Both the position numbers and the translations under genes were made by a program. Positions 22,245-60,801 of a DNA stretch of 64,000 nt are shown here, in pieces. Source of the stretch: Microglena sp. YARC (Eukaryota; Chlorophyta; Chlorophyceae; Chlamydomonadales; Chlamydomonadaceae); the NCBI GenBank assembly GCA_022414725.1, contig CM039462.1, positions 33,347,828-33,411,827 of the forward strand. Reading direction: 5' to 3'. The notes below the pieces were generated by a model, which worked only from the letters and a program-made list of their open reading frames with translations, made no database searches and was not told where the DNA came from. Each line of letters begins with the position of its first letter. The first letter of the stretch is position 1.

Positions 22245-22277
<33 letters not shown>

Positions 22278-22368: not shown

Positions 22369-22419
<51 letters not shown>

Positions 22420-24711: not shown

Positions 24712-25310
24712 TCATGTGATGACACCGGCTGGGTTGTTGCGTTTCCGCAAGTAAAGGGTCGAGCCCTTGGCATACGGGAACTCAGGCAGCAGATCTGGTA
24801 ACAGCTGTACCGCTCCTGCATGCTGCTCTTCCTCCCTCTCCCCTCCTCCCAATTCCGATCTTGGTGTCCCCCATGGGACCGTCCCCATGGAATCGTCCTG
24901 GCCAGGGAGGGAGCTGGAGTCTGTGGCTCTCAGTGGGCTGCCTCCGCCTGTCATGGCGGGGGATACCAATGGGGTGAACATTGCACTGCTGCCGCCGTCT
25001 GTCAAGCTGCCGTCAGCTCGCCCATTTCCGCTGGCAAGCGAAGTTGAGAGACTGTACTGAGTTGGGGTGGGGACCCGAGCTCCCGTGCTGGGGACTGCGT
25101 TTTGGGATAGACGGGTAATCAAGGCAGAGGAAGCTTTGTAGGCGTAAGCGCCCCGAGGCAGGCTCTTCTCCCCCTGCTCCTCCCCCTGGACCTGTTTCAA
25201 AAAGGGTGGCGGTGGCTTCAGCGTTTGCGAGTGCCCCATTGTCTTTGGAAGACAATACAAAATAATTATAATTATAATAATACAATTATTAAATTATTAT
25301 AACAATACAA

Positions 25311-25341
<31 letters not shown>

Positions 25342-25530
25342 GTAGTAATAAAATTATTAAATTATGATAACAATACACAATATTTATAACAATATAAACG
25401 AATTATAATAATAATAATAAAATTAATAAATTATTATGACAATACAAAATAATTATAATTATAATAACAACAGGCAACAACAGATAATAATGATTATAAT
25501 AATCATACTTATACTACTAATACTACTTAA

Positions 25531-25587
<57 letters not shown>

Positions 25588-28500
25588 AATGATCCCAATT
25601 TAATACTTATAATTATGATAATAAATATATTAATTATGATAACAACAAAAATACATATAATAATAATAATAACAGGTAACAACATATAATACTAATACTA
25701 ATTAAAATGATAAGAACAACAATAACAATAACAGATCAAACAGATAAAAACAGAGAGAAGAAAAAAAATCTCTATGTGTGCATAATTCCCTCAACGACTT
25801 AATTTGGTTCAAGAGTGTGGGACAGAGCCTTACACATCCCCAAATGCTCAGATTCAAAGCCTGAGTAGATCACACTGCTTGGAGACGTGTCAGCTAGGTG
25901 CGCTGCAATTGTTTTGGCACGAGATGTACGTTTCAAAGTGGGACAAATCCAATCCGCATCAAATACAAGGTAGCGCAAGCATTCACGAATCAAGTTTCTG
26001 AGGGACGAAAGGCTTATCGAACCCCTGCCACAAGGTCGAAGGCTGCGCTTCAGCCGCCGCCTCTGAATTTACTGGAATAGCAGCAGAACATGAGTTCACC
26101 TCCCAAAGACCCAATCCTACCTCCAAACCTGAGAATTCAGCTCCCAATCCCAAATCTAACTTCAGTAGTGGATGTTTAAAGACACAGTGAACAGTTCGTC
26201 TTTTGAATTTGTTTAAAGCTAGGATTTGAAAGCCAGACCATGTTACCTCTACCTGTTGAGCGCAGCAGGGAATAGCATAGGAATGTAACAAAAAGGCCAA
26301 ACCCTCTTACCTGCTGAGCATGGCGGGGCTCTTCGCATTGGCAGCAGCTCTCCAGAGTCGGGGTATAACTCAGGATCTGACAGGATTGTAAAACAAAAAA
26401 TCTGTTACCTCTACCTGTTGAGTATTGCAGAGAAGAGCACAGGAATGTGAAAAAGAAGCCAAACCCTCTTATCTGCAAAGCATGGCGGGGCTCTTCTGCT
26501 GCTTGGCAGCAGCTCCAGAGTCAGAGACACCACAGGATCTGACAGGATTGTAAAAAAGCCAAACCCTGATACAAAACAAAGAAAACGCTTACCTCAAGCA
26601 GCTGAGCATGGCGGAGGAGGTGCTCCTGCTGCTTGGCAGCAGCTTCAGTAGCGGAGACAACTGATGTTAGTTTGAGGGGTTCCCTCAGCATCTCTCTAGG
26701 AAGGTGGGAGCCCCACACACCACCAGCGGGGCCGACCCTGCGATGTCGCTCTTGTTCGTCAAAGCGCCTCAAGGCGACCTCATCCTGCGGTGGGAGAGTG
26801 GGTGGGTGGGTGGGGTGTGGGGCTTGTGGGCAAGAGGGGGCAAGGGGGGCCTTATGTCAAGGAGGGTGGGCAAGGGGGGGCTTGTGGGCAAGGGGGGGCA
26901 AGGGCAGGCTTGTAGGCTAAGGGGGGGCAAGGGGGGGGCTTGTAGGCCAAGGGGGGCAAGGGGGGCCAGGATGGATGGCAATACAACTGTCAGAGGCAGG
27001 ATGAATGGCAATACAACTTTCAGAGGCAGGACGAATGGCAATACAACTGTCAGAAACAGGCCAGTATTAACCCAAGACAAGCCCACACCACAACTTGCTT
27101 GCCTGCTTCAACTGATCAGCAGCCTCATGGATGCCTTGCACGTTCTCAGTGTAGCCAACAGCCTGTTCTATCTAACTACCCAACAGATGAAACACTCGAA
27201 CACACACTGTTTAGACTGGAACCCGCTCTGTCAACCTGCCCCCTAAATCAAATGCTCACACACATATAATACCATCAGCACTAATTACCTGCTTCAACTG
27301 CTCAGCTGCCTCGTGCACACTGCACTGCACTGCACTGCACACTGCACAGCTTGTGCTTTGGTTTGGTTCGATTTGGTTTGGTTTGGTTTGGGTCAAACCA
27401 AACCAAAGCACAAGCTGCACGTTCGCAGTGAAGCCACCAGCCTTAACACTTATAGCCTTTCATTAGTTGAAGTCTTCTACAACCTCTTTCTAACCACCCC
27501 AAGGATGAAATACTGAAATACCATACACACAATACCATCAGCATTCCTTACCTGCTTCAACTGCTCAGCTGCCTCCTGCACAAGCTGCACGTTCTCAGTG
27601 TAGCCTGCAGCCTTAACTGTCATAGCCTTCCATTGGTTTTTCTACGACCTCTTTCTAACCCCCCCATGGATGAAATACTCAAATACCATTCATACACTGC
27701 CATCAGCATTCCTTACCTGCTTCAACTGCTCAGCTACCTCCTGCACAAGCTGCACGTTCTCAGTGTAGCCTGCAGCCTTAACTGTCATAGCCTTCCATTG
27801 TTTTCTCTACGACCTCTTTCTAACACCCCCATGGATGAAATACTCAAATACCATACACACACCGCCATCAGCACTCCTTACCTGCTTCAACTGCTCAGCT
27901 GCCTCGTGCACAAGCTGCACGTTCTGAGTGTAGCCTGCAGCCTTAACAGTCATGGCCTTCCATTGGTTAAAGTCCTCCATGTCTTTTTTGCTCATGATAA
28001 TCTTTTCAGCACGGTCTTCATTGGCAGCACGGCGCACGGCAGCCACTGCCCAAGTGCGAGCGAATTGGGCGCCGGCTTTGACTTCCTTCTCAGTCTTCTC
28101 CTGGGTCTTGGCCACATGGCCAGCCTGGGGGGGAGCGAGGGGAGGGTGAGGGCATGGGGTGATGCGCTTTTGTTTTTTTAGTTTAGTTTAGTTGTGTTGT
28201 GTTGTTCGCGCCAGCAGCCACAGCCCAAGTTTTAGCGAACTGGGCGCCGGCATTTTACTCTTTTCTCAGTCTTCTCCTGGGTCTTGGCCACATGGCCAGC
28301 CTGGGGGGGGGGGGGGGGGGGGGGGGGGGGAGCAAGGGGAGGGTGAGGGCCATGGTGTGATGTGCTTTTTTTCCTTTTTTCTTTTTTTTAGTTGAGCTGA
28401 GCTGAGTTGAGCTGAGCTGGGTTGAGTTGAGCTGAGTTGAGTTTACTTGAGTTGAGTTTAGTTGTGCTGTGTTGTGTTGTCGGCGCACAGCAGTCACTTC

Positions 28501-31500
28501 CCCAATTGAGCAAATTGGGCCCCGGCTTTGACTTCCTTTACAGCTGTATCCTGGGTCTTGGCCACATGGCCAGCCTGGGGGGAGAGCGAAGGGAAGCGGA
28601 GGGAGGGCATGGGTTGATTATTTGTAGCTGCTTTGTGTTATGTTGTGTTATGCTGTGTTATGCTGTGTTATGTTGTGTTATGTTGTGTTGTGTTATATTA
28701 TGTTGTGTTATGTTGTGTTGTGTTATATTATGTTGTGTTATGTTGTGTTACGTTATGTTGTGTTATGTTATGCTGTGTTATGTTGTGTTATGTTGTGCTA
28801 TGATGTGTTATGTTGTGTTATGTTGTGTTATGTTGTGTTATGTTGTGTTATGTTGTGTTATGTTGTGTTGTGTTGTGTTGTGTTGTGTTATGTTGTGTTA
28901 TGTTGTGTTATGTTGTGATATGTTATGCTGTGTTATGTTGTGTTATGTTGTGTTATGTTGTGTTGTGTTGTGTTATGTTGTGTTATGTTGTGTTATGTTG
29001 TGTTATGTTGTGTTATGTTATGTTGTGTTGCGTTATGTTGTGTTGATTTGCGTAGTTGGAGCGCGGCAGCCACTGCCCAAGTTTTAGAGAACCGGGCGCC
29101 GGCTATGACTTTTCTCACTGTTCTCACTTTTATCACTTTTTCCTGGATCTGGCCACATGGCCAGCCTGGAGGGAGCAAGGGGAGGGGGAGGGCATGGGCT
29201 GATTTTTTTGTGGTATTCATTTGTATTGACTTGCATGACCTCGTCCTGGGGGTGGGTGGTGGGGGTGGGGAAGAGGGTGGGTGGGTGGGTGCAGAAGTGG
29301 GTGGGTGCGTGGGTGGGGAGGGGAAGTGGGTGGGTGAGAAAGTGGGTGGGTGGGGTGGGCAAGTGACCTCAAAATTCAACCCACCTGGCGCACAAACGCA
29401 GATGAGAAAGCACGATCTTGCTTCACTCGTTGTTTGCGTGCTTCCTTCATAGCACGCATGGTAACCCGGTTTGATTTTGCCCCAGTCACGGCTTCCTTGT
29501 ACAGCTCCACCATGGCACCAGCTACGGCCATCTGCCTGTTGGTCTTCTCGTTCACATCCCTCATTGCTTCCTTGCGCTCGTACTTGATCTCCGACATGAT
29601 CAACCTGGAGCACAGGGCACAGCATAGATTAACAGTTCAATAAAATATAAATTCAAGCAGATTCAAAGCAGAATTAACCCTCATTTGTGAAGTTAAATCC
29701 GGCTTCCTGCCTGTTGGTCTACTTGTTTATACCCTTCATCGCTTCATTGCGCTCGTACTTGATCTCCGACATGATCAACCTGGAGCACAGGGCACAGCAT
29801 AGATTAACAGTTCAATACAATATAAATTCAAGCAGATTCAAAGCAGAATTAACCCTCATTTGTGAAGTCAAATCCGGCTTCCTGCCTGTTGGTCTACTTG
29901 TTTATACCCTTCATCGCTTCATTGCGCTCGTACTTGATCTCCGACATGATCAACCTGGAGCACAGGGCAAAGCATAGATTAACAGTTAAATTAAATATAA
30001 ATTCAAGCAGATTCAAAGCTGAATTAACCCTCATTTGTGAAGTTAAATCCGGCTGTTGATCTACTTGTTTATACCCTTCATCGCTTCATTGTGCTTACGC
30101 TTGATCTTCGACATGATAAACCTGAAGCACAGGGCAAAGCATGGATTAACAGCTCAATTAAATATACATTCAAGCAGATTCAAAGCTGAATTAACGGCAA
30201 TTTTTAAAGTTGAATCCGGCTTTCTGCCTGTTGGTCTACTTGTTAACATCCTTCATCGCTTCTTTGTGTTTGTGCTTGATCTCAAACATGATCAAACTGG
30301 AGCACAGGGCAAAGCATGGAGTAACATTTAAATCAAATACATATTAAAAGCTGAATTAATGGTAATGTTAAAAGTTAAATCCGGCTTTTTGCCTGTTGGT
30401 CTACTTGTTCACAGCCTTCATTGCTTCTTTGTGCTAACAAGTCCTTAGCACATGTTGCAAGCGGCACGAAAAAAACGAGTTTGCAGTCACAGGCAGGGCA
30501 GGAGGCAAAAGGGGGAGGAGGGCTGGGAGATTTGAAGAAGTGCGAAGCAAGTAGCTAGCAGCCACACGAGCCTTCCGTAGCTGAATAGCTACAAAACATT
30601 CAACACATTTTGCGAAGGATCTTGGTAAGTCCGATGCTGATAACTCTAGTCATGTGCAGGCCAACTATGAGCCATTTGTTTGGGTACGGAGGTCAAACAG
30701 CGACAGACTGACTGGTAAACTGGCAGACAGATAGATAGATACGGGTGGAACTGTAGGCTTCGGGACCCTGGGGGTTACCTAGGGGGGCTAAAGTTAAAAG
30801 AATCAACGAAATCGGCTACGAAGACTTGCCAAAACTCCGTCAATAATGTTCTTTATTGCGCCAATTGTGACAGGTGCTCTTGAGCCTCCCTTGAGCCTTG
30901 CGTACCAGTATATGCACAATCTACCACAAGTATCTGCACAATCGATCTGTACTGCGCGTACTACCACAGACCAGCTGTGGGCGACTACCACTGCGCGACT
31001 ACCACATACCAGTAGTGGGCGATACCAGTACAGATCGCGACTACCACAAGTATCTGCACAATCCACATAAACCCAACCTCCATTGGCCAGTTTCTTTTTT
31101 GTGCCAATGGTGACAGGTGCTCTTCAGCCTCCCTAAAGCCTTGCCTACCTAAGAGGGTATGCACAATCAAAATAAACCCAACCTCCATTGGCCAGTTTCT
31201 TTTTTGTGCCAATGGTGACAGGTGCTCTTGAGCCCCCCTAAAGCCTTGCCTCCCAAAATATTAATGCACAATCAACATAAAACCGACCTCCATTAGCCAT
31301 TTTCTTTTTTGTGCCAATGGTGACAGGTGCTCTTGAGCCCTCTTTGAGCCTTGCCTACCCAAGAGGGTATGCACAATCACGGTGACTATAACTAGCTCCG
31401 GCTTACACTATGGTGCCCTTAACTTCACGTCCTGTGAGTAACTGTATTACACGGATGTAACAATTTCAATTTCAATTTCAATATGCACAATCAAATCAAA

Positions 31501-32446
31501 ATTCAAATTCAAATTCACCCGCGTGTATGTTACAGTCCAGGGGTAGCCAAATAGGCTAACGGGACTTGCCCATCCTTGATATCAGGAGGGGCTAAAGCGA
31601 CAAGTCCTACGCAGCGTCGCAAGCGACGCGGAATATTGGCGGATTGTGTTGGCAACGGAACAAAAGGTGGCAAAGATGGAGCAGACAGAAGCGAGTTAGT
31701 TACGCGACCGTTGGCTGACGTGTCCGGCTTCAAGTTTTTCGTTTTTCGTTTTTCGGTCGGACGGACAAATGGGTAAACATGGGGGCTCCCGCCCCCTTGA
31801 AGAGGGGGCTCCGCCAAAAACAAACACTTTGAACATGTCCCATGCTGGAAACGGCATGTTTCCAAGGGCCAGTGCATGACTCGTGTTGGTATGCTTGAGA
31901 TAATGAACCTTACTCATGCGAAATCAAACCAAACGTTTTCACGCAAACATATATTTCTCACACAATCGCAACTCACTCGTGCTCCTGCTTCTGGCGCGCA
32001 GCATTGTATGCCAAGTCAGCTTGGTAAGCATTCCGCATGCCTGCCACAAGTTCCGCCATGTCCCCTGGCGGCAACGGCATGTAACCAGGGGCCAGTGCAT
32101 GACCCGTGTTGGTGTGTTTGATCCATAGCAGGTCGGTGGTGGTGAGAGCATGGCCGCGCAGCTTCTTCTCATCAGCCGCCTCCTCACGCTCTGCCACGAT
32201 GATAGAGTCATTGAGACGGTTCATGTCGCGGGTGTAGTTGGCCTGCGCACAGGGTGTGGGTATGGGTGTGGGTGTGTATATGGGTGGTGGTGAGTGCATG
32301 GCCACGCAGCCGCTTCTCATCAGCCACCTCCTAACGCTCTGACACGATGATTGAATCATTGAGTTTGTTCATATCGCGGGTGTAGTTGGCCTGCACACAG
32401 GGGGTGGGATGCATGGGTGTGTGGGTGTGGGTGTGGGTGTGGGTGC

Positions 32447-32480
<34 letters not shown>

Positions 32481-35400
32481 GCGGATGTGGGGGGTGGTGA
32501 GTGCATGGCCACGCAGCCGCTTCTCATTGGCTACCTCCTCAAGCTCTGCCACGATGATTTAGTCGTTGAGACGGTTCATGTCGTGGGTGTAGTTGGCCTG
32601 CGCCCAGGGGGGGGGGGGGGGGGGGGGGTCTGTGTGGGTGGGTGGATGTGGGTGAGGGTTGGGTGTGAGGGTGTGGGTTGGATTTGAGATTGGGCGTTCT
32701 AGGGTTGAGGAATTGGGGGGTCAGGGTTGAGGGGTTGGGTGATTGGGGGGGTGGGTTGGAGTTGGGGGGGGGGGGGGGGGGTGAGGGGCCCTATGCTTGT
32801 CTCATGAGCGAAGCCCTAACCTGAAACTCAGCTGGAATGCCCTCCTCCTTCTCCAGCATGGGCAGGGAACCTGTCCAGCCCCTCGAATACTACGACTACT
32901 ACTGCTACTTATCAAAAACAAAATACCATTATGGGCTCCCACCTGCTCAAAGTTTGCCCAGCGTGGGTCCTGTGCTTGTCTGATGAGCCAAGCCCTAACC
33001 TGCAACTCTGCCAGGATGCCCTCCTCTTCTTCAGCATGGGCAGGGGCCCTGTCCAGCCCCTCGAATACTACTACTCCTACTTCTAATCAGAAAACAAAAT
33101 ACTCTGATGGGCACATACCTGCTCAAAATTAGCCCAGCGAGGGTCCATTGCTTGTCTGATGAGCCAAGCCATAACCTGCAACTCCGCCAGAATACCCTCC
33201 TACTCCTCCAGCATAGGCAGTGGCCCGGTCCAGCCCCTCGAATTATACTACTACTTATAATGTATGAAACAACTGATGAGCACCCACCTGCTCAAAGTTG
33301 GCCCAGCGTGGGTCCATTGCTTGTCTGATGAGTGAAGCCCTAACCTGCAACTCAGCTGGGATGCCCTCCTCCTCCTCAAGCATGGGCAGGGGCCCGGTTC
33401 CAAAAAGAGAGCCAGTACCTAGGGGGTGTAGTTGGTGTTGGTGTGTGGGGTTGGTGCGTGGGGATGGTGTGTGGGGTTGGTGTGTGGGGTTGGTGTGTGG
33501 GGTTGGGGTTGGGGTGTGGGTTGGGTTGGGGTTGGGTTGGGGTTGGAGCAAGAACGTTGGGTTGTGTAAGTGTGTAAAGGTGTAAGGCAGAGTTTGAGAT
33601 ACATGGAAGTTTACAGCAGCCCCCCCCCCCCCCCACCCACCCACACCCACAAACAAAATTGGAGCAGGCCATGCAATAGCAGGTCGCTTGCACAACTTAC
33701 ATCCACTGAGGGGGGTGGTCGTGGCCACAGCTTCTCCGCTCCACAGGCTTTGGCGTTGGGATTGGTCGGCAATGCCCCCGCCCCCCCATCCCCCCTCCCC
33801 CCCACACACCACCACCACCCACACCCACACGAACTTGGAGCATGCAATGAGAAGATCACCCGCACAACTTGCATCTACTGAGGGGGGTGGTCGTAGCAAC
33901 GGCGTCTCTCGCTTCGCATGCTATTGCGTTGGGATTGGTCGGTACTGCCTGGGTTCAGTTGCCCCCCACCCCCCCACCCACCCCACCCACAGACCCACCA
34001 CACACACAAGAACTTGGAGCATGCAATGAGAAGATCACCCGCACAACTTGCATCTAATGAGGGGGGTGGTCGTGGCAACGGCGTCTCCGCTTCGCATGCT
34101 ATTGCGTTGGGATTGGTCGGCACTGCCTGGGTTCAGTTGCCCCCCACCCCCCCCCCCACCCCATACACAGACCCACACACACACAAGAACTTGGAGCATG
34201 CAATGAGAAGATCACCCGCACAACTTGCATCTAATGAGGGGGGTGGTCGTGGCAACGGCGTCTCCGCTTCGCATGCTATTGCGTTGGGATTGGTCGGCAC
34301 TGCCTGGGTTCAGTTGCCCCCCCACCCCCACCACCCACCCCATACACAGACCCACACACACACACAAGAACTTGGAGCATGCAATGAGAAGATCACCGCA
34401 CAACTTGCATCTAATGAGGGGGGTGGTCGTGGCAACGGCGTCTCCGCTTTGCATGCTGTTGCGTTGGGATTGGTCGGCACTGCCTGGGTTCAGTTGCCCC
34501 CCACCCCACCCCCCCACCCCCACCCACAGACCCACACACGCACGCACAAACTTGGAGTAGGCCATGTAATTAGAAGATTGCTTGCACAACTTACATCCAC
34601 TGATGGGGGTGGTTGTGACCACGGCTTCTCCGCTCCGCAGGCTACTGCGTTTGGATTGGTCGGCACTGCCTGTGTTCAGTCCCCCCCCTCACCTCCACCC
34701 CCACCATCAACACCCACTCACACACACACACAAACTTGGAGCTGGCCATGCAATGGCAATTTCAAAACTTACATCCACTGAGGGGGGTGGTCATGGCCAC
34801 TGCTTCTCTGCTCCACAGGCTATGGCGTTGGGATTGGTCGGCACTGCCCGGATTCAGTTGCCCCCACCCACTCACACACACACGCACACACTTGGAGCAG
34901 GCCATGCAATTGCAAGATCCCTTGCACAACTTACATCCACTGAAGGGAGTGGTCGGGGCCACGGCTTCCCCGCTCCGCAGGCTTTGGCGTTGGGATTGGT
35001 TGGCACTGCCAGGGTCCAGCTGCCGTCCCCCCACCATCACCACACACCCACACACAAACTTGGAGCAGGCCATGTAATGACAAGGTCGCTTGCACAACTT
35101 ACAACCACTGAGGGGGCTGGTCGTGGCAACGGCGTCTCTGCTCCGCAGGCTATGGCGTTGGGATGGGTCGGCACTGCCCAGGTTAAGTCCCCCCCACCCC
35201 CCCACCCACCACCCCCCATCACACCACCCCACCCCCCACTCACACACGCACAAACTTGGAGCAGGCCATGCAATGGCAAGATCGCTTGCGCAACTTACAT
35301 CCACTAAGGGGGGTGGTTGTGGCCACGGCTTCCCCACTCCGCAGGCTTTGGCGTTGGGATTGGTCGGCACTGCCCGGGTTCAGCTGCAAGGCGTTTGCCC

Positions 35401-37399: not shown

Positions 37400-37461
<62 letters not shown>

Positions 37462-37784: not shown

Positions 37785-37852
<68 letters not shown>

Positions 37853-40800
37853 TATATATTATATATATATATATATACGAGTACCTGTATATGTAGACAC
37901 ACATATATGTAACAACCTCAACACCCTCAGATAGCCTATCACCGCACCCCACCATATCATCCCCTTCTGGGTGGGGTTCGTATTCCATAGGGGGACCTCA
38001 CTCGAGCTGACAACCCCCCCCCGTCGATGGACTGAGTGGAGGTGCGGCTGTGGCTCATGTCCATCGCATGTGCTTTGCGATACTTGAATTTAATCTGATT
38101 TGATGTAATAATTAAATTTAATATATTAATTGAATTTGATAATTGAATCGGATTTCATTTGATCTGGTTTCGTTTGGTTTCATTTACCCCCCCCACCCCC
38201 CACCCTCACCCTCAGATAGCATATCACCGCACCCACCATATCATCCCCTTCTGGGTGGGGTTCGTATCCTGGGCCATAGGGGGACCTCACTCGAGCTGAC
38301 AACCTCCCCCCGCCGATGGACTGAGTGGAGGTGCGGCTGTGGCTCATGTCCATTGCATGAGCGCCCACATCGGCATCTACAAGCAAACCATCTGGGCGAC
38401 GCTCACTCCGGGTACGAGAGGGGGATTGGAAAGGAGATTCCCACGTGCTAGGAAGCCTGGGGCCTGAAGTGGTTGGTGGTTGGTGGTTGGTGAATGTTAG
38501 TGGATGGTGCGTGTTAGTGGGTGTTAGTGGGCTGTGCTAGTGGGCGGTGTTAGTGGGCGGTGTTAGTGGTTGGTGGATGTTCGTGGTTGGTGGGTTTAAG
38601 TGGATGGTTGTGGATGGTGGTGGATGTTCGTGGGTGGTGGGTGTTAGTGGGTGGTGGTGGATGTCCGTGGGTGGTGGGTGTTAGTGGATGATGGTGGATG
38701 TCCGTGGGTGGTGGGTGTTAGTGGGTGGTGTTAGTGGGTGGTGGATAACTGAAGTGGGAAGTGGGTGGTGCTATTGGGTGGTGTTAGTGGGTGGTGGATG
38801 ACTGAAGTGGGAAGTGGGTGGTGTTAGTAGGTGGTGTTAGTGGGTTGTGTAAGTGGGTGGTGGATGACTAGTTTGATCACACTTTGATCACACCAGAGCC
38901 AGTTTGTTCTGTGCGACAACTTATAATTGCTTTGTAATACCACCGCCCACCTTGGGTTGGGGAGAAGTCACTTGCGCCAGTCACTGTTATAGCTATTGGA
39001 GTGAATCCATCGCCCACCACCATACCAGTCCACATGTGCTTGTCTCACCCAAGCGCAACAATTGACAACTCATCATTCCATTGTAATAGGACCGCTCATT
39101 TTAATTTTTGTAATTCCATTGTAATACCCCCGCTCACCTTGGGTTGGGAAGAAGTCACTTGCGCCTGTCACCGTTATGGCTACTGGAGTGAATCCATCGC
39201 TCGGCATCATACCAGTCCACATGTGCTTGTCTCACCCAGACGCAACAATTTGCAACTCATAGTTCCATTGTTATACCAGCGTTCATTTCAATTTCCGATT
39301 TTCATTTTTGAACACTGCTCACCTTGGGTTGGGGAGAAGTGACTTGTGCCAGCGCTAGTCACCGTTATTGCTACTGGATTGAATCCATCGCCCGCCAGCA
39401 TACCAGTCTGCCTGTACTTGTCTCACCCAGGCACAACAATTTAAACCTCATCATTCCCTTGTAATAGCACCACTCACTTTGGGTTGGGGAGAAGTCACTT
39501 GCGCCAGTCACCGTTATTGCTACTGGATTGAATCCATCGCCCGCCATCATACCAGTCTGCCTGTACTTGTCTCACCCAGGCACAACAATTTACAACTCGT
39601 CATTCTGTTGTAATAGCACCACTCACTTTGGGTTGGGGAGAAGTCACTTGCGCCGGTCACTGTTATAGCTACTGGATTGAATCCATCGCCCGCCATCATA
39701 CCAGTCTGCACGCCATTGGATGGATCGTTGACAAAGCCAAAGCCTCCTGTGGTCGATGGCAGGGGATCAAAGGAGTCCTCACCACTTCTGGGGATCCTTC
39801 GTGACGTACCACCAACGACAGGGGGTAGGCGGATGTTTGATTTGGAACCGAGGGGTTCAAAGGAAGGGGAGCCTGCAGAATGGCCTGCGGTTAGCAAGGT
39901 GGAGGGGGTGAGGCGTGGAAGGGGGCAGGAATGGTGGTGGTGGGCTGGTAGTGGTGGTGGTAGTGATTCTGGTGGTGGTGGTTACTAGAGGAGGTAGGCG
40001 GAAGCTGGATTTACGACCGAGGGGTACAATGGAAGGGGGCCTGCAGAGTGGCCTGGGGTAAGCACGGTGGAGGGGGGGGAGGCGTGGAAGTGGTAGTGGT
40101 GGCGGTCGTGGTAGTGGTGGTAGTGGTGGTGGTGGTAAGTAGAGAAGGTAGGTGGACGTTGGATTTGGAACCAAGGGGTTCAAAGGAAGGGGAGCTTGTG
40201 GCCTGCGGTAAGCATGGTGGAGGGGGGAGATGTGGAAGGGGTGGTGGTGTTGGTGGTAGTGGTGGTGGTGGGCTGGTAGTGGTGGTTGTGGTGGTCAGTA
40301 GGGGAGGTAGGTGGTCTTTGGATTTGGAACCACGGGGTTCAAAGGAAGGGGAGCCTGCAGAGTGGCCTACGGTAAGAATGGTGGAGGGGGAGATGTGGAA
40401 GGGTGGTGGTGGTGGTGGTGGTGGGCTGGCAGTGGTGGTGGTAGTGATTGTGGTGGTTGTGGTGGTCAGTAGGGGAGGTAGGTGGTCTTTGCATTTGGAA
40501 CCAAGGGGTTCAAAGGAAGGGAGCCTGCAGAGTGGCCTACGGTAGGATGGTGGAAGGGGGGGGGGGGGGGGGGCGGGGGGGGGCATGGTGAAAGGGGGGA
40601 TGAAGGGTGTTGTTGGTGTTGTTGGTGTTGTTGGTGGTCAGTAGAGGAGGTAGGTGGACGTTGAATTTGGGAGTGAGGGGTTAGTGGTGGCAAATACGAT
40701 GAATCCATAGGACACATATCCTCTTTCATGAGAGGCTCCATTTGCTGGACGGAACGCCTGCCACTTGAGGTAGCCATATATATAATATACATTATGTGTA

Positions 40801-41245: not shown

Positions 41246-41300
<55 letters not shown>

Positions 41301-47300: not shown

Positions 47301-50300
47301 ATCAGCCGACTACCTACCTCCTACCTACCCCCCCCTTCCTCTCCTACCTCAGCCATCACCACCTCAGACGTGCCAGGTCGAGACAGTGCCTCATTTATTG
47401 CCGCCCAGCGGTGCCCTTCCAACTCTCCTACTCCAGCATGGCCTGCCCCAGCGGCACGATCAGCCGCCGGGATCGCCATCTTTTTAACGTTCTTGATCGC
47501 ATGGAGGGGTATCAGCCGACTGCCAGCCTGGATGATGGGATCGTATGTAAGGCAGAGCAGGAGGCAGGCCCTGTTCCTTGCCTCCACGGCTGAGCAGAAG
47601 GTGATCTGAAGGGCGAAGTCATCGGGCTCTGCTGCGTCGTGAGTGAGGGGGAGGCCGTGCACTTGCGGGAGCACTTGGTGATTCGCATTCTGTGGTGGGT
47701 GGGTGGTGGATGGGTGAGTGGTGGGTGGGTGGGTGGTGAGTAATGGGAGGTGTATGGGTGGTGGAAGGGTGAGTGGTGGTGAGTGGGTGTGTGGGTGGTG
47801 TGTGTGTGGTGAGTGGGTGGTGAGTGTGGTGAGTGGTGAGTGGTGGGTGTGGTGGGTGTGTGTGGTGAGTGTGGTGGTGAGTGGTGTGAGTGGTGTGTGT
47901 GTGTGGTGTGTGGGTGGTTGAGTGTGTGGTGAGTGGGTGGTGGGTGGTGTGAGTGGTGAGTGGGTGGTGAGTGTGTGGTGAGTGTGTGGTGTGTGGGTGT
48001 GGGTGGTGGGTGGTGAGTGTGGGTGTGAGTGGGTGGTGGTGTGGTGAGGTGTGTGTGGTGAGTGTGTGTGTGGTGGTGTGGTGTGGTGTGTGGGTGGTGA
48101 GTGGTGGTGGTGTGTTGTGGTGGTGAGTGTGGTGGTGAGTGGGGTGGTGGTGAGTGTGTGGTGGTGAGTGTGTGGTGGGTGTGTGGGGTGGTGTGTGGGT
48201 GGTGAGTGGGTGGTGAGTGGGTGGTGTGGTGAGTGGGTGGTGAGTGTGGTGGTGTGGGTGGTGGTGTGTGTGGTGAGTGTGGTGAGTGGTGTGGTGGGTG
48301 GTGAGTGGGTGGTGAGTGGGTGGTGGTGAGTGGGTGGTGAGTGGGTGGTGGTGGGTGGGTGAAGTGGTGGTGTGTGGTGTGGTGAGTGGGTGGTGAGTGG
48401 GTGGTGTGTGGGGTGGTGAGTGGGTGGTGAGTGGTGGTGAGTGTGTGGGTGGTGAGTGGGTGGTGAGTGGGTGGTGGTGTGTGTGGTGAGTGGTGTGTGT
48501 GAGTGGTGTGAGTGGTGGGTGGTGAGTGGGTGGTGAGTGGGTGGTGGTGGTGGTTGTGTGGGTGGTGAGTGGGTGGTGAGTGGGTGGTGAGTGTGGGGTG
48601 GTGAGTGGGTGGTGAGTGGGTGGAGTGGTGTGGTGGTGGTGGTGGGTGGTGTGGGGTGGTGAGTGGGTGGTGAGTGGGTGTGTGGGTGGTGGTGGGTGGT
48701 GCAGTGGGTGGTGGTTGGTGGTGAGTGTGGTGGGGTGTGTGGGTGGTGAGTGGGTGTGTGGTTGAGTGGTGTGGTGGTGGTGTGGTAGTGGGTGGTGTGA
48801 GTGGGTGGTGAGTGGTGTGTGGTGAGTGGGTGGTGAGTGGGTGGTGAGTGGGTGGTTGTGGTGAGTGGGTGGTGAAGTGGGTGGTGAGTGGGTGGTGAGT
48901 GGGTGGTGAGTGGGTGGTGAGTGGGTGGTGAGTGGAGTGGGTGGTGGTGGTGTGGTGTGGTGGGTGGTGAGTGGGTGGTGGGTGGTGGTGGTGGTGGTGG
49001 TGGTGATGGTGAGTGGGTGTGTGTGGGTGGTGAGTGGGTGTGGTTTGTGGTGGGTAGTGAGTGGGTGGTGAGTGGGTGTGTGGGTGGTGTGTGTGGGTGG
49101 TGAGTGGTGGTGAGTGGGTGGTGGTGGGTGGTGGGTGTGGATGGCGAGTGGTGGATGGGTGAGAGGTGGATGGGTGAGTGAGTGGGGAAGTGGGTGGGGG
49201 TGATGAAGTAGGTAGGTAGGCTGGTAGGTAGGCATGACTGTAAACACACACGAACAAAAGATCCAAAAAGCAGGAAGTAGGAAGCACAGGACCCGCTTTT
49301 CAGTGCTCCTAGAATCTTTGAGTTTGGCCCAGTCGCAGTCTCGGGGAGCTGCCTAGAAGCTGCTGCTGGTAGCCTAAAAGAAAACCTTGTCTTCAGCCCA
49401 TCCAAGACTAAGAAATCTGGGTCTGGACCAGTGGCAGCCCCGGGAAGCTGCCTAGAAGCTGCTGCTGGTAGCCGAAAAGAAAACCTTGTCTTCAGCCTAT
49501 CCAAGACTAAGAAATGTGGGTCTGGCCCAGTGGCAGCCCCGGGAAGCTGCCTAGAAGCTGCTGCTGGTAGCCAAAAAGAAAAATCCTTCTCCAACCTATC
49601 CATGACTTAGAAATCTGGGTCTGGCTCGGTGGCAGTCTCGGGAAGCCGCCTAGAAGCTGCTGCTGGTAGCCAAATAGAAAACCCTTGTCCCCAACCTATC
49701 CAAGACTAATAAATCATCGACTAGGTACATAGAATTAAATGATCACTGAAGCACATCAGGGCCCCCGTTGGTCAAACCGTTGTTTGGGGTTCAGTTCTTC
49801 AATGCTTTTTATTTGTAAGCCCTTCCTATCACGGTTGGGCTAGTCTCTTAAGCCTATTTGGACTGTAACAAACACATCCAGGGCCACAACCACCTACCCA
49901 CCCAACCACCTACTCACCCAGCCACCTACCCACCCAACGAACCACCTTCCCACTTACCCACCCAACCACCTACTCACCCAGCCACCTACCCACCCAACGA
50001 ACCACCTTCCCACTTACCCACCCAACCACCTACTCACCCAGACACCTACCCAACCACCGAACCACCTTCCCACTTACCCACCCAACCGCCTACCCACCCA
50101 ACCCATTATGCACATAGCACTCATGCCCCACCTGCCACACGGCCCCATGAGTAGGCAGCTGTAACACTGTAACACTGTAACAATTAACTGTCAAAAACAA
50201 AACCACCCACCCAACCAAGCAGCACTCATGCCCCACCTGCCACACGGCCCCATGAGTGAGCAGCTGTAACACTGTAACACTGTAACAATTAACTGACCCC

Positions 50301-53300
50301 AAAAAAATCCACCCACCCACCCACCCAACCAACCAAGCAGCACTCATGCCCCACCTGCCACACGGTCCCATGAGTGAGCAGCTGTAACAATGTAACAATT
50401 AAATGACTTACAAAGAATCACCCACCCACCCAACCAACCAACCAAGCAGCACTCATGCCCCACCTGCCACACGGCCCCATGAGTGAGCAGCTGTAACACT
50501 GTAACAATTAAATGACTGACAAAGAATCACCCACCCACCCAACCAACCAACCAACCAAGCAGCACTCATGCCCCACCTGCCACACGGTCCCATGAGTGAG
50601 CAGCTGTAACAATGTAACAATTAAATGACTTACAAAGAATCACCCACCCACCCACCCAAACCAACCAAGCAGCACTCATGCCCCACCTGCCACACGGTCC
50701 CATGAGTGAGCAGCTGTAACAATGTAACAATTAAATGGCTTACAAAGAATCACCCACCCACCCAACCAACCAACCAAGCAGCACTCATGCCCCACCTGCC
50801 ACACGGTCCCATGAGTGAGCAGCTGTAACAATGTAACAATTAAATGACTTACAAAGAATCCCCCGCCCACCCACCCACCCAACCAAGCAGCACTCATGCC
50901 CCACCTGCCACACGGTCCCATGGGTGAGCAGCTGTAACACTGTAACACTGTAACAATTAAGTTTCTTACAAAGAAACCAACAAACCACCAACAAACTAAG
51001 CAGCACTCGAGCACATTGTCCTATTCAACAATCCCTAACCTGTAACAATTAACTTAATTACAAAGAAACCAACAAACCAACCATGCACCCACCCAACCAA
51101 GCAGCACTCATGCCCCACCTGCCACACGGTCCCATAAGTGAGCAGAGGTAACACTGTAACACTGTAACAATTAAGTTTCTTACAAAGAAACCAACAAACC
51201 ACCAACAAACTAAGCAGCACTCAAGCACTTTGTCCAATTCAACAATCCCTATACTGTAACAATTAACTTAATTACAAAGAAACCAACAAACCAACCATGC
51301 ACCCACCCAATCAAGCAGCACTCAAGCACTTTGGCCTATTCAACAACTCCTAGACTGTAATAATTAACCACCCACCCACCCACCCACCCAACCAACCAAC
51401 CAAGCAGCACTCATGCCCCACCTGCCACACGGTCCCATGAGTGAGCAGCTGTAACACGCATCCACCCACCCACCCAAGTGGCACTGCCGCACAGTCACAT
51501 GAGTGAGCAGCTGTAACACTGTAACGATTGACTGACTAAAAAAGAAACCACCCACCCAACCAACCATGCCCCACCTTCCACACCGTCCCATGGGTGAGCA
51601 GCTCCACGGCGTGCTGAGCCCCACCCACCTGCCCACCCAACCACCCAACCAATCATGCACGAAGCAGCCATGCCCTACCTTCCACACGGTCCCATGGGTG
51701 AGCAGCTCCACGGCGTGCTGAGCCCCAACCACCCACCTGCCCACCCAACCACCCAACCAATCATGCACGAAGCAGCCATGCCCTACCTTCCACACGGTCC
51801 CATGGGTGAGCAGCTCCACGGCGTGCTGAGCCCCAATCACCCACCTGCCCACCCAACCACCCAACCAATCATGCACGAAGCAGCCATGCCCTACCTTCCA
51901 CACGGTCCCATGGGTGAGCAGCTCCACGGCGTGCTGAGCCCCAGCCACCCACCTGCCCACCCAACCACCCAACCAATCATGCACGAAGCAGCCATGCCCT
52001 ACCTTCCACACGGTCCCATGGGTGAGCAGCTCCACGGCGTGCTGAGCCCCAACCACCCACCTGCCCACCCAACCACCCAACCAATCATGCACGAAGCAGC
52101 CATGCCCTACATTCCACACGGTCCCATGGGTGAGCAGCTCCACGGCGTGCTGAGCCCCAACCACCCACCTGCCCACCCAACCACCCAACCAATCATGCAC
52201 GAAGTAGCCATGCCCTACCTTCCACACGGTCCCATGGGTGAGCAGCTCCACGGCGTGCTGAGCCCCAACCACCCACCTGCCCACCCAACCACCCAACCAA
52301 TCATGCACGAAGCAGCCATGCCCTACCTTCCACACGGTCCCATGGGTGAGCAGCTCCACAGCGTGTTGAGCCCCAAATAGCTTCACATTGCCGTATGTGC
52401 TCTTCACCTCAGAAGCTGATATGACAGGCACGTTGGCGTGCGTCCACTCAGGGAGACCCATGCGGGGTTCGTTAGCTTCGGCCGTGACGAACACGTAGCC
52501 TTGGGGGTCGAAGCCAAACTTGACCTTATGCTCGCGGAAGATGTTCATGGGCCGCACCGCACGAGCTTTGATGTTCTGTGGACGGTGGGGTGGTAAAGGT
52601 AGGTGGTGGGTTGGTAGTGGTGGTGGGGAGGTGGGGAGTGGGGGAAAGCTGGGAGTGGTAGTGGTGGGGTGGTAGTGGCGGGGTGGTGGTGGTGGGGTGG
52701 TAGTGGTGGTGGTAGTGGTGGGGTGGTAGTGGTGGGGTGGTAGTGATGGGGTGGTAGTGGTGGTAGTGAAGGTTTTTTTGTTTGTTCTTATGCGTCATTG
52801 GTACTCACTCACCTCAACACTAGCAACATCCAGAGCCAGCTCCCCCCCAAGTTACAAGTTGATCAGAGACTTTCCAACTAAGGGTGGTAGTGGTGGGGTG
52901 GTAGCGGTGGGGTGGTAGTCATGGGGTGGTCGTGCTGGTGGTTTAGGGGGGGGTGCGTTGTAATGTGTCACTGGTACTCACTCACCTCAACACTAGCAAC
53001 ATCTAGAGCCAGCTCCCCCCCAAGCAACAAGTTGCTCAGAGACTTTCCAACCGCGTGGCACTGCTCTAACATCTTCATCCGTTGTTTGAAGAGGTCTGCA
53101 ACAAGGCATGAGGTACAGTGTGGTGGTGGTGAGGTGATGGTGGTGGTGGTGGGTTTGTGGTGGTGGTGGCGGTGGTGGTTGGTCGAGTTGGGTTGTGGTA
53201 ATGGTGGGGTGGTGGTTGGTTGAGTTTGGATTCATTGAAGGCCTTCGATCAATGGGTGCAGAGCTCATGGCACTGCTCTAATATCTTCATCTGCTGTTTG

Positions 53301-53555
53301 AAGAGGTCGGCAACAAGGCATGAGGTACAGTGTGCTAGTGGTACCCCTCCCCCCCCCCTACAACCACTACGCCAAGCTCTCTTAATCACCCGCACTGCTC
53401 TCAGCTGTGCTACCTGCCCCTTGAAGTCAATTCGCCCTCAAAGGCATTTAGCCTCCACATGCCATGCCCCCCCCCCCCCCCCCCCCTCCCACACACACAC
53501 AACCCAAAGGCCTCCCACCCCTCCACACAACTTAAAACCCATACAACCAGACCCC

Positions 53556-53586
<31 letters not shown>

Positions 53587-56500
53587 AACCAAAGGCCTCC
53601 CACCCCTCCACACAACTTATAACCCATACAACCAGACCCTCCCCCCCCCACCCCACCCCCCACACACACACAACCCAAAGGCCTCCCACCCCTCCACACA
53701 ACTTAAAACCCATACAACCAGACCCCCCCCCCCCCCCCCCCCCCCCCCCCATCACACACACACACAACCCAAAGGCCTCCCACCCCACACACACCTTAAA
53801 ACCCATACAACCAGACCCCCCCCCCCCCCCCCCCCCCCGGTACACTTACATCTACGCCAAGCTCGCTTGATCACCCGCACTGCCCTCAACTGTGCAACCT
53901 GCCCCTTGAAGTTGATTCGCATTCACAAGCATAACACTCTCCACACACACCCACACCCCACACACCCCAGGCCTCACAACCACACCCACACCCAAACACC
54001 TCAACCCCTACAGGCCTCCCAACAACACCCACACCCAAGCACCCATACAACCACTCACACACACCCTTACACTTACACCTACGCCAAGCTAGCTTGATCA
54101 CCCGCACTGCTCTCAGCTGTGCTACCTGCCCCTTGAAGTTGATTCGCATTCACAAGCACAACACTCTCCACATGCCATGCCTCTACCTCCTTCCACCCCA
54201 CCCCACCTCCCTCCCCCACAACGCACAGGCCTCCCAACCACACCCACACACAAGCACCCATACAACCACAAACACACAACCCTACACTCCTATCTCTGCC
54301 CTGCTCGCTTGATTACCCGCACCACCCTCAGTTGAGCTATCTGCCTCTTGAAGTCAATTCGCCTTCACAAGCATGACACTCTCCACCCACCCCCACCCAC
54401 CCACGCCCTACAGGCCTCACAACCACACCCAAACCCAAACACACACACACAAACACCCCCCCCTGCACTTACATCTACGCCAAGCTCGTTTGATCACCCG
54501 CACTGCCCTCAGCTGTGCTATCTGCCCCTTGACGTCGATTCTCCCTCGAAGGCATTTATCCCTCCACATGCCATGCCCCCACCCCCCACAACCCACAGGC
54601 CTCTCAACCACACCCAAACCCAAGCACCCACACCCAAACAACCACAAACACCCTCCCACACACACACAAAACCCTACACTTACATCTACGCCAAGCTCGC
54701 TTGATCACCCGCACTGCCCTCAGCTGTGCTACCTGCCCCTTGAAGTCAATTCGCCCTCGCAAGCATTTAGCCCTCCACATGCCCTGTGTTCGGATGGCTG
54801 ATGAGATGGCTCTGCAGGTCTGGTCTAGCAGGGGTGTCAGCGTCAACCCTGCAGGGGAGGGGAGGGGGGGGTCAAGGTCAAGAAGGGTGTTGGTCTGGAG
54901 GGGGGGAGGGGAGGGGGGGGGGGGGGGGGTTAAGGTCTAGAAGGGTGTTGGTCTGGAGGGGGGAAGGGGAGGGGGGGGGGGGGAGGGAAGGGAAGGGGGG
55001 GGAGGCGGGGGAGGCGGGGGATCAAGGTCAAGAAGTGAGTGTTGGTCTGGAGGGGGGGAGGGAAGGGGAGGGAGGGGGGGGGGGGGGCGGGGAGCGGGGG
55101 ATCAAGGTCAAGAAGTGAGTGTTGGTCTGGAGGGGGGGAGGGGAGGGGGGGGGGGGGGGGTAGGTCTAGAAGGGTGTTGGTCTGGAAGGGGAAGGGGAGG
55201 GGGGGGGGGAGGGAAGGGAAGGGGGGGAGGCGGGGGATCAAGGTCAAGAAGTGAGTGTGGTCTGGAGGGGGGAGGGGAGGGGAGGGGGAGGGGGGAGGGG
55301 GGGGGGGGGGGGGGGGGGGGGAGGCGGGGGATCAAGGTCAAGAAGTGAGTGTTGGTCTGGAGGGGGGGAGGGGAGGGGGGGGGGGTTAAGGTCTTGAAGG
55401 GTGTTGGTCTGGAGGGGGGGAGGGAAGGGAAGGGGGGGAGGCGGGGGAGGCGGGGGATCAAGGTCAAGAAGTGAGTGTTGGTCTGGAGGGGGGAGGGAAG
55501 GGAAAGGGGAGGGGGGGGGGGGTCAAGGTCAAGGTCAAGAATGGTGTTGGTCTGAATAGGGGGAGGGGGTGGAGGTTGGGTGGGGTGGGTGGGGATCAAG
55601 GTCAAGAAGTGAGTGTTGGTCAAGAAGGGTGTAGGTCTGGAAGGGGAAGGGTATACAAAGCCTTCCAAACCTTTTAGATTGAAGATTTGTATTTCCTGTG
55701 CCACTACTAAGATGAATTAAGTACAGGAATACAGTATAAATACAATTTAAATAAAATAGGAAAAGGGTACATAAAACATCCCACACCCTTTAGATTGAAG
55801 ATTTGTATTTCCTGTTCCACAGCTAAGATGAATTTACTATCGGCATACGATATAAATACAATTTGAATAAAATAGGAAAAGGGTATATAAAACATCCCAC
55901 ACGTGTGAGCGGTAACGATCCTCGCGTCCCCCTATCAGACACCACGTTTTCCTCATTGGTTACAATTAATGGAGTCATTGAGGGCCTGCTTACAGCGAAT
56001 CGTCGCCTAGCACCCCGAGTTCGATCCCCGCTAGATCGAAGTGCAGGTCGCCTGCCTGAGGAAATCTCCGGACGTGCACACCGATAGTGAGCGTCGGTCT
56101 TTCGACAGGGGGGTGAAGTGTGAGCGGTAACGATCCTCACGTCCCCCTATCGGACACCACATTTTCCTCATTGGTTACAACACCTTTCAGATTGCAGAGT
56201 TCTATTGCCTATGCTACTGTCAAGATGAATGTTACATACAATTAAAATATGATTATAATATAAAACAAGTATAATAAAACCTCCCACACCTTTCAGATTG
56301 AAGAGTCTGACTGCCTGTGCCACTGCCAACATGAATGTTACACAAGATTAAAATACGAGTAGAATACAAAACAAGTATAATAAAACCTCCCACACCTTTC
56401 AGATTGCAGAGTTCTATTGCCTGTGCTACTGTCAAGATGAATGTTACATACAATGAAAAAATGATTAGAATACAAAACAAGTATAATAAAACCTCCCACA

Positions 56501-59353
56501 CCTTTTAGATTGAAGAGTTTGATTGCCTGTGCCACCGCCAGCATGAATGCCATACATGAATAAATATCATTGCAATTGGAAACAGGTAAGTCAAACCTCC
56601 CACCAGGGTAATTCAAAGCGCGCGCTTTTGCGCTTTTGAGCGCTGACTTTTTGACCCCCTCTGCGCTTTAAGCGCAGTTTTTTGCAACTCCCTGTGGGCG
56701 CTGCAAGTAATTTTTGCGCTTTTTGCACTACAAAGCGCAGTTTTTTGTTTTCAAGTGCGCTAAAGCGCTGGCCAATTTGGCCATTTGAAGTACATTGTCT
56801 CCCAAACCTTTTAGATTGAAGAGTTTTATCGCCTGCGCCACTGCTAAGATGAATTAACTATAAGACTATAATATAAATGCGATGTGAATAAACAAGGAAA
56901 AGGGCTGAAAAGGGTGTATAAAGCCTCCCACACCTTTTAGATTGAATAGTTTTATCGCCTGTGCCACGGCCAAAATGAATGAAACATTTGCAGGCAGAGC
57001 GACAGGGATGAGGCACTCTTTTTCAAAGGACCGGATGGGAGGGCGGTCCGCCATCTTTCGCAGCAGCGCTTTGGTTTCTTGTGTCATGGGCTTGATTTCG
57101 CCCTCGTCTTGAAGGCCCTCAGCCAGTTTTACCAGGGTGGCAGGCTTCCTGTGTGTGCATGGGTTAGTTAGGCTGTAGTTAGGGTTTAGATAGGCTGCCT
57201 GTGTTTGCATGGGTTAGTTAGGCTGCAGTTAGGGTTTAGATAGGCTGCCTGTGTTTGCATGGGTTAGTTAGGCTGTAGTTAGGGTTTAGATAGGCTGCCT
57301 GTGTTTGCATGGGTTAGTTAGGCTGCAGTTAGGGTTTAGATAGGCTGCCTGTGTTTGCATGGGTTAGTTAGGCTGTAGTTAGGGTTTAGATAGGCTGCCT
57401 GTGTTTGCATGGGTTAGTTAGGCTTTAGTTAGGGTTTAGATAGGCTGCCTGTGTTTGCATGGGTTAGTAAGGCTGTAGTTAGGGTTTAGATAGGCTGCCT
57501 GTGTTTGCATGGGTTAGTTAGGCTTTAGTTAGGGTTCAGATAGGCTGCATGTGTGTGCATGGGTTAGTTAGGCTGCAGTTAGGGTTTAGATAGGCTGCCT
57601 GTGTTTGCATGGGTTAGTTAGGCTTTAGTTAGGGTTTAGATAGGCTGCCTGTGTTTGCATGGGTTAGTTAGGCTTTAGTTAGGGTTTAGATAGGCTGCCT
57701 GTGTTTGCATGGGTTAGTTAGGCTGCAGTTAGGGTTTAGATAGGCTGCCTGTGTTTGCATGGGTTAGTTAGGCCGTAGTTAGGCCTTCAATAGGCTGCCT
57801 GTGTTTGCATGGGTTAGTTAGGCCGTAGTTATGCCTTCGATAGGCTTCCTGTGTTTGCATGGGTTAGTTAGGCTTTAGTTAGGGTTTACTTAGGTGTTGG
57901 TTAGACTTCAGTTAGGCTCTAGATGGGCTTCCTGTGTGTGCATGGGTTAGTTAGGCTTTATCAAAAATTCGGTTAGACTTTAGATACCCCAGTACCCCTG
58001 GACTTGAACATACATACATTAAGCTACTCCCTAGATAACTATAAGTACTCCCCATACATGTACATACCCCATTACAAATAAGCACCTCAGTAGCCCATGT
58101 ATGTAACATAAGCTACTCAGGGTCTGGCATATACCTGCATTACCAACCCAACCCCTCCCAACCCAACCCAAACCAATCCTACCCACCCACCCACCAACCC
58201 CCAATGCCTGAATTGTATTTCTGTGCTGAGCCACCCATCCCAACTCAACCAACCCAACCCAACCCAAACAACTCAACCAACCCAACGCAACCCAACCAAC
58301 CCAACCCAACCCACACAACTCACCCAACCCAAACCAACCCAAACCAACCAACTCAACCAACCCAACGCAACCCAACCAAACCAACCCATCCAACCCAACC
58401 CACACAACTCACCCAACCCAAACCAACCAACCCATCCCAATCAACCCATCCCACCCAACCCAACCCACACAACCCAATCAACCCATCCCACCCAACCCAA
58501 CCCACCCAACTCACCCAACCCAACGCAACCCAACCCAACCAACCCACCCAACTCACCCAACCCAACGCACCCAACCAACCCATCCCACCCAACCCATCCC
58601 ACCCAACCCAACCCACCCAACTCACCCAACTCAACTCAACCCAACCCAACCAACCCATCCCACCCAACCCAACCCAACCAACTCACCCAACCCAACGCAA
58701 CCCAACAAACCCATCCAAGCCAAGCCAACCCACCCACCAACCCCACATACCTGCGTTGTATTTCTGTGCTAGGCCACCCAACCCACCCAACCCACCCACC
58801 AACCCCACATACCTGCGTTGTATTTCTGTGCTGTCGGGCGCCTCCCGATCATCATCAAACTCCCAAGTTTCTCGCGGCTTGAGGCGCACTCTTCTAAGCA
58901 ACAGCCCACGCGGCATGGTGGGCTCCAGCAGGCTGGTTCGGGCATCCCCATTAGCATCCATGGCTGGCGGTGAAGTAGAGGAGAGAGGGGAGGAGGGTGG
59001 AGGGGAGAGGGTTGACATGTGTCAGAAGTCATGGTCAGATTCAAGAGATGTTCATTCAAACATAGTGATTTGCATATGCAGCATGGTTGGCTGCAGCTGG
59101 CTGGTTCGGGCATCTCTATTTGCATACATGGTTGGTGGTTAAGTAGAGGAGAGAGGGGAGGAGGTTGGAGGTTGGAGGTTGGAGGGAATGTTGGAGGGGA
59201 GAAGGGAGGAGGTGAGAGGGTGGAGGGGAGAGGTGAGAGGGGAGAGGGGAGAGGGGAGACATGTGTCAGAAGTCACGGTTAGGTTCAAGAGATGCTGATA
59301 AAACTGAGTGATTTGCCAACACCTACACACAGCCCCCACCACCACCACCACCA

Positions 59354-59388
<35 letters not shown>

Positions 59389-60801: not shown

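Follow-up and report, generated by a model that had tools for sequence, protein, structure and literature searches.

Copies of exon edges and splice sites in the adjoining introns of a green alga, and their probable origin by untargeted tandem duplication

The 64,000-nucleotide stretch of algal DNA analyzed here (the window) carries a gene of 22 exons, called the main gene below, in which the ends of exons appear to recur within the neighboring introns. Are these recurrences genuine copies of exon edges with their splice sites, how far do they reach through the genome, and what process could have produced them? The original prediction, made from the letters alone, held that such copies lie at nearly every long intron and that introns grow by tandem duplication that repeatedly spans the splice junction.

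The exons of the main gene were rebuilt from open frames and GT/AG ends. The frames are unbroken from exon 1 (E1) through E15 and from E16 through E22, and the phase between E15 and E16 is incompatible with the letters of the window. Neither Pfam, the PDB, nor a first protein search returned a match for the main gene, and Rfam returned nothing in the window; a later protein search found three proteins matching residues 185-645. One of them (P0121) is 100% identical to the main gene across the aligned part and, judged by this identity, is evidently the host species' own annotation. The other two are orthologues, P0122 from the MMETSP collection, a transcriptome project, and P0123 from Chlamydomonas eustigma (g1384). 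P0121 terminates inside intron 16; because both orthologues have an E22-like end and, by eye, E18-like and E21-like stretches, E16-E22 were nevertheless taken as part of the same gene. At exon 15 (36530-37032), P0121 reads the exon end in a frame absent from the window's letters. A small difference in G-run lengths between the window and the source of P0121 is probable and would explain why the phase at E15/E16 does not fit. Residues ∼966-1030 of P0123 hold a 15-residue unit four times, each starting V-G after R-H/N-M, at a place where exon 16 of the main gene seems to match; this repeat reads like translated donor-edge copies, and arrays of the same kind may be present in C. eustigma.

Each of the 22 exons was compared with every one of the 21 introns of the main gene, and the threshold was set at 32.8 bits, the best score reached in 20 dinucleotide-shuffled intron sets. 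In this shuffle-controlled scan, 93 copies reached the threshold, all of them in the two introns flanking the source exon, with no match in nonadjacent introns and no antisense copy in the main gene. At least one copy was present in 20 of the 21 introns, as claimed for nearly every long intron, the exception being intron 1 at 99 bp, and copies belonged to 28 of the 42 junctions (17/21 donor and 11/21 acceptor). The copied exon parts were 20 to 175 nt long, and 79 of the 93 copies ended within 2 nt of the exon edge (71 within 1 nt). They bring intron sequence along with the exon edge, diverge by up to 27% from their parent, and also differ among themselves; one donor edge has 16 copies in a single intron. 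Matches in downstream introns (62) derived without exception from the 3′ half of the exon and those in upstream introns (31) from its 5′ half, a result expected from any local tandem array and thus evidence for locality rather than for splice-site targeting. The number of copies per exon base was 1.94 in the first 20 nt from the junction, had dropped to 0.03 at 160-180 nt, and was 0 farther out. When long-period arrays in the gene were merged, 19 of 36 (11.6 of 16.4 kb) contained or touched an exon edge at a threshold of 28.5 bits. We conclude that the presence of exon-edge and splice-site copies in the adjoining introns is real. The excess of donor over acceptor copies (62 versus 31) was considered as a sign of selection against upstream decoy acceptors and was dropped because the junction counts gave a Fisher p of 0.10 and the chaperonin genes described below gave 33 versus 30. 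A pairing of G-rich with C-rich intron halves was likewise set aside as too weak (10-mers with a complement, 0.018 in the same intron versus 0.010 across introns).

The individual arrays are collected in Table 1. The five acceptor-edge and four donor-edge copies described for exon 13 were recovered exactly, and the gene at 62,671, called the third gene below, has five acceptor-edge copies. The "eight 97-bp units" of exon 7 correspond to the parent plus seven long copies, but their spacing is ∼108 bp. In a second exon 7 family (50116-51324), TTACAG, 27 in-frame exon 7 nucleotides, and GT recur as a row of possible microexons. The count of about fifteen 50-bp units at the exon 4 acceptor edge agrees with our count by eye; the units consist mostly of branch site and AG with only ∼8 exon nucleotides, and for this reason the array was excluded from the copy count. 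Copies are present in NAA20, but in place of about 17 donor-edge copies there are 10 of exon 2, 6 of them at the edge, and 2 of the exon 3 acceptor edge. Nine of the 10 exceed 32.8 bits and 4 stop 15-16 nt short of the edge, and one of the two NAA20 introns holds copies. NAA20 and the third gene were scored without a shuffle control of their own, and the third gene, known from its last exon only, stands outside all intron totals. The decay of copies with distance proved weak, the Spearman coefficient being negative at 8, zero at 1, and positive at 2 of the 11 junctions with at least four copies. Broken frames are not the rule throughout, as two exon 12 copies are open and in frame.

Table 1. 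Coordinates of genes, copies, and arrays in the window
Feature	Position	Strand	Remarks
Main gene, 22 exons, 21 introns	24712..60801	-	E1 60801-60745 to E22 25242-24712; from frames, splice sites, and orthologues P0122 and P0123
Exon 4 3′-splice-site array, about fifteen 50-bp units (branch site, AG, ∼8 exon nt)	57142..57888	-	by eye
Exon 4 donor-edge copies, 7	55670..56857	-	
Exon 5 donor-edge copies, 5	53366..54575	-	
Exon 7 donor-edge array, ∼108-bp units	51564..52376	-	parent plus 7 long copies
Exon 7 donor-edge copies, second family, 27-29 exon nt	50116..51324	-	several after acceptor-like TTACAG
Exon 12 acceptor-edge copies, 4	41670..42207	-	
Exon 12 copy, 129 nt, open, AG and GT ends	41974..42102	-	exon in annotated P0121
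Second exon 12 copy, 129 nt	41763..41891	-	exon in annotated P0121
Exon 13 acceptor-edge copies, 5	39989..40710	-	
Exon 13 donor-edge array, 4 copies	38924..39709	-	coordinates include the exon's own edge
Exon 16 donor-edge array, 9 copies, ∼178-bp units	33690..35187	-	
Exon 19 acceptor-edge array, 5 copies	29707..30460	-	
Exon 20 donor-edge copies, 5	27078..27803	-	
NAA20, exons 18121-18405, 19742-19828, 22459-22636	18121..22636	+	
NAA20 exon 2 copies, 10 at ≥31.9 bits	19886..21486	+	6 reaching the donor edge
Identical 46-nt decoy stretches, 3	20898-20943, 21011-21056, 21124-21169	+	any would encode the foreign stretch of P0002
NAA20 exon 3 acceptor-edge copies, 2	22199..22356	+	
Third gene, 5 acceptor-edge copies of last exon (starts 62786)	62878..63420	-	

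A sample of genes chosen blind to repeats was obtained by locating chaperonin genes through Pfam PF00118, and four of those located, on contigs C1, C2, C3, and C5, were examined; by family name we take them to resemble CCT6, CCT4, and two CCT1-like paralogues. The threshold was 31.0 bits, the maximum of 20 shuffles, and the intron ends were assigned by a script, with manual correction at three places. Copies were found in 14 of the 20 introns, a set that includes two with a profile gap suggesting an unseen exon and one cut by the stretch end, and at 19 of 39 junctions. There were 63 copies (33 donor-edge and 30 acceptor-edge), 54 of them within 2 nt of the exon edge, and no antisense copy in the four genes; the 33 other matches comprise 32 cross-hits between the two paralogues and a single unexplained match, weak and distal. 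The main gene, NAA20, and the four chaperonin genes together hold copies in 35 of 43 introns, and exon-edge copying was seen in seven genes on four large contigs (195, 95, 63, and 46 Mb). The chaperonin introns, NAA20, and the third gene show that copying is not confined to one gene, in line with the claim that it is a property of the genome. The whole-genome search, which skips very common words, returned 10 matches to the 101-nt exon 16 edge in the 568-Mb genome among the matches listed, all within 1.7 kb at C1:33381520-33383217, and one match to an interior stretch of exon 2 among those listed. The exons of the CCT1-like paralogues are 78-83% identical. In the intron after profile position ∼221, one paralogue has two donor-edge and no acceptor-edge copies and the other five acceptor-edge and no donor-edge copies, so that the turnover of arrays seems to outpace the divergence of the genes. 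One CCT1-like copy (locus L032, 4495-6107, on C3) has an in-frame stop and a frame break and is perhaps a decaying duplicate, its paralogue (L033, on C5) being apparently intact. The CCT4-like gene (L031, reverse strand) has an apparent GC-AG intron at the exon end at 4629 (CATCAG|GCAAGT).

Long-period tandem repeats are also common outside recognized genes, covering 0 to 71% (median 0.24) of 21 fetched 10-kb stretches chosen regardless of genes, and long arrays occur far from any recognized exon. In the window, near-identical (99%) tandem arrays of 289 bp × 6 (5580-7307) and 100 bp × 24 (12446-14836) lie outside recognized genes and mark recent expansion outside introns too. Repeats with a period of at least 30 cover 51% of the main-gene introns and 41% of the chaperonin introns. 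Ab initio exon calls in the 21 fetched stretches were rejected, as no more than 14 of the 35 calls made in the window at a cut-off of 22 corresponded to known exons, and so was a test of outward against inward edges on such calls (128 calls; 53 outward and 35 inward matches), which is partly forced by geometry.

Because long-period repeats are common outside recognized genes, we simulated duplications at random places that were retained only if the spliced message stayed whole; decay, deletion, and insertion were left aside. When introns of 60-200 bp were grown to the observed lengths, 94-100% of them acquired exon-edge copies. The best setting, with introns starting at 300 bp and 120-bp units, has two free values chosen from 18 combinations, and its start falls inside the range of median intron lengths, 198-343 bp, that the accessible part of a study of Chlamydomonas relatives gives (PMC8226300). 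In successive 20-nt steps from the junction, the simulated copies per exon base were 1.92, 1.94, 1.52, 1.15, 0.72, 0.46, 0.29, 0.24, 0.16, and 0.09, and the observed ones 1.94, 1.95, 1.54, 1.14, 0.67, 0.30, 0.12, 0.05, 0.03, and 0; the simulated profile is thus near the observed one over the first 100 nt and above it farther out, with too long a tail. The simulated and observed numbers were 18.1 versus 20 for introns with copies, 13.9 versus 17 for donor junctions, and 13.5 versus 11 for acceptor junctions, whereas donor copies were underestimated (49 versus 62) and acceptor copies overestimated (54 versus 31). Intron-internal events outnumbered junction-spanning events in the simulations. Among four arrays tested, 30 of 37 copies were closer to another copy than to the exon (E16, 7/9; E7, 18/18; E20, 4/5; E5, 1/5), so most growth seems to have been intron-internal once a few junction-spanning events had occurred; gene conversion would leave a similar picture. 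The predicted local tandem duplication across the junction is supported, whereas the notion that duplication repeatedly spans the junction is unneeded.

On these grounds we consider it likely that originally short introns grew by untargeted tandem duplication of ∼100-bp stretches, some of which ran across a splice junction and copied the exon edge together with its site. Duplications across one junction would be tolerated, since splicing at the exon-proximal copy of the site would still give a complete exon, whereas those within an exon or covering all of it would be eliminated. Further intron-internal duplications would then multiply the copied edge, and the ancestral intron would have been short. 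Since the exon-sparing, untargeted simulation gives a similar fall-off with distance, the exon edges were probably swept along rather than targeted. Against such a blind process stand the 6 of 20 chaperonin introns and the one of two NAA20 introns that hold no copy. Exon definition is predicted to tell true sites from decoys, because decoy donors lack an acceptor at one exon-length upstream, and decoy acceptors lack a donor downstream.

Most copied sites keep their terminal dinucleotide. Among copies that span the junction, GT is kept in 52 of 59 and AG in 42 of 45, against a simple neutral expectation of 46.9 and 35.5, and 6 of the 59 decoy donors have GC. The score of the weakest true site is equaled or exceeded by 53 of 59 decoy donors and 43 of 45 decoy acceptors, a low bar in the case of the acceptors; 14 donors and 19 acceptors reach the median true site, and 28 and 17, respectively, reach their own parent. 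The median scores of decoy versus true sites are 8.1 versus 9.5 for donors and 2.2 versus 7.3 for acceptors. By sequence score, many decoys would thus be credible candidate sites, somewhat weaker on average. Both annotated proteins retrieved for the window contain decoy-derived stretches. In the annotated NAA20 (P0002), 15 conserved residues are replaced by a peptide that the decoy at 20898, 21011, or 21124 encodes, and the stretch missing from it is kept by five other NAA20 homologues. In P0121, the two 129-nt copies of exon 12 serve as exons, E4 and E11 are missing, and the protein stops within intron 16. Neither the two main-gene orthologues nor the five other NAA20 homologues compared contain the decoy-derived peptides, and mis-prediction of the genes is the simpler reading of these stretches.

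The retention of GT and AG, the strength of the decoys relative to the weakest true sites, and the two open, in-frame exon 12 copies in an annotated protein could be taken to mean that the copies are functional and kept by selection, as tandem alternative exons, recursive-splicing points, or a buffer of spare sites. We regard this as improbable: copies within one array are not independent, the retention figures are biased upward because the alignment had to cover the junction, and the decoys are on average weaker than true sites; the foreign peptides are also missing from the homologues, and the annotated NAA20 that carries one lacks a stretch that five homologues keep. It also seems unlikely that duplication was targeted to splice junctions or to transcribed intron ends, for instance by stalled replication or R-loops at G-rich donor-side tracts. 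Such targeting would fit the 20 of 21 introns affected, the repeat cover of introns (0.51 and 0.41), which is above that of most fetched stretches, and a sense-strand GC skew that, in 19 of the 21 main-gene introns, is greater over the first 40% than over the last 40%. However, the untargeted simulation resembles the observations in the profile close to the junction and in the fraction of introns affected, long arrays also lie far from recognized exons, and the skew, which amplified donor-side and acceptor-side signals may themselves cause, is weaker in the chaperonin introns (14/19, p = 0.06). An extra bias toward genes is possible because the tandem-repeat content of introns exceeds that of the median fetched stretch.

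An assembly artefact, or spread by a mobile element or reverse transcription, is very improbable. The frame of exon 15 in P0121, disallowed by the letters of the window and probably reflecting different G-run lengths, would suit an assembly fault, but the divergence of the copies from their parents and from each other is unlike assembly stutter. Among the genes tested, there were no antisense copies and the introns of other genes held no copies except for the paralogue cross-hits and the one weak match, and the intron sequence that accompanies each exon edge is unlike retrocopies or introners.

Introner elements likewise bring about a mass change of intron content across a genome. They are dispersed between genes, and a paper on Amoebophrya reportedly speaks of invasive intronic elements. 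Unlike introners, the copies in the alga stayed in the intron beside their own exon in the genes tested, with all 10 exon 16 edge matches among those listed within 1.7 kb and none in distal introns of the main gene. Intron gain by tandem duplication, as the accessible literature describes it, likewise involves a tandem copy that spans an intron-exon boundary and brings splice signals along; in that case a new intron results from one duplication, whereas in the alga existing introns lengthen many-fold, the relatives being compared as orthologous proteins.

The closest known system is exon stuttering, described on chicken dot chromosomes in 190 of 5,572 dot introns (3.4%) (PMC12954441, Genome Biol Evol 2026). 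According to the accessible part of that report, a lateral part of an exon with its donor or acceptor is copied through the adjacent intron in imperfect tandems while the exon stays intact, just as in the alga, and the matches are proximal, not distal, in both (PMC12954441). The source lies within 1 base of the exon border in >90% of chicken cases, compared with 71 of 93 within 1 nt and 79 of 93 within 2 nt in the alga, and the exon parts measure 20-187 and 20-175 nt, respectively (PMC12954441). As in exon stuttering, proximal copies in the alga exceed the shuffled control (93 proximal and 0 distal in the main gene; 63 proximal, 1 unexplained distal, and 32 cross-hits in the chaperonin genes) and the introns are largely covered by tandem repeats (51% and 41%). 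The prevalence differs, with 3.4% of dot introns in chicken versus 35 of 43 introns examined in the alga, and so does the setting, which in that part of the report is mainly small GC-rich chromosomes and in the alga the large contigs C1, C2, C3, and C5, with a GC of 0.505 in the window (PMC12954441). The chicken authors relate stuttering to the GC content and recombination of dot chromosomes and also refer to gerbil genes; within-species variation of intron length is a main feature there, whereas the alga is known from one assembly (PMC12954441, accessible part). In searches of open PubMed Central papers, the same anatomy was found in no report on algae and in one report overall, that on chicken (PMC12954441). 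For the long introns of Chlamydomonas relatives, which belong to the same algal order as the host (Chlamydomonadales), the accessible text reports length and constraint, leaves the cause open, and does not mention exon-edge copies (PMC8226300); the corresponding text of the Haematococcus genome paper mentions repeats and no exon-edge copies (PMC7617258). On this comparison, what appears to be new is the lineage, the ordinary chromosomes and base composition, and the presence in 35 of 43 introns, the kind of copying being already known from chicken.

These results suggest that exon stuttering is apparently not limited to birds or to GC-rich DNA. They offer a testable answer for the long introns of Chlamydomonas relatives, namely blind tandem duplication combined with selection on exons, and they provide natural experiments in splice-site choice, such as the donor edge copied 16 times in one intron. 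They also warn that gene predictions in such genomes may include decoys, as both retrieved proteins do. More tentatively, tandem duplication might be the default engine of intron growth in this algal lineage, so that nearly every intron longer than a few hundred bases could be a fossil array of its own junctions; site sequence alone might then be insufficient for the spliceosome to recognize the ends of exons, and the decoys might form a reservoir for new exons, the two open 129-nt exon 12 copies being examples.

Pfam searches of 40 ORFs provided no multi-exon gene for testing among them; they returned D5-type primases, reverse-transcriptase pieces, PARG, Cas12f1-like domains, histone H2A, and weak or low-complexity matches. 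Two ORFs on the minus strand of the window (446-3893) each have D5_N and DUF5906 primase/helicase domains, and ORFs with D5_N, PARG, and Cas12f1-like TNB domains lie ∼18-33 kb before the window start (L010, 4786-6441; L011, 701-1663 and 7971-9488). These ORFs perhaps belong to a chromosome-resident element resembling giant viruses or virophages.
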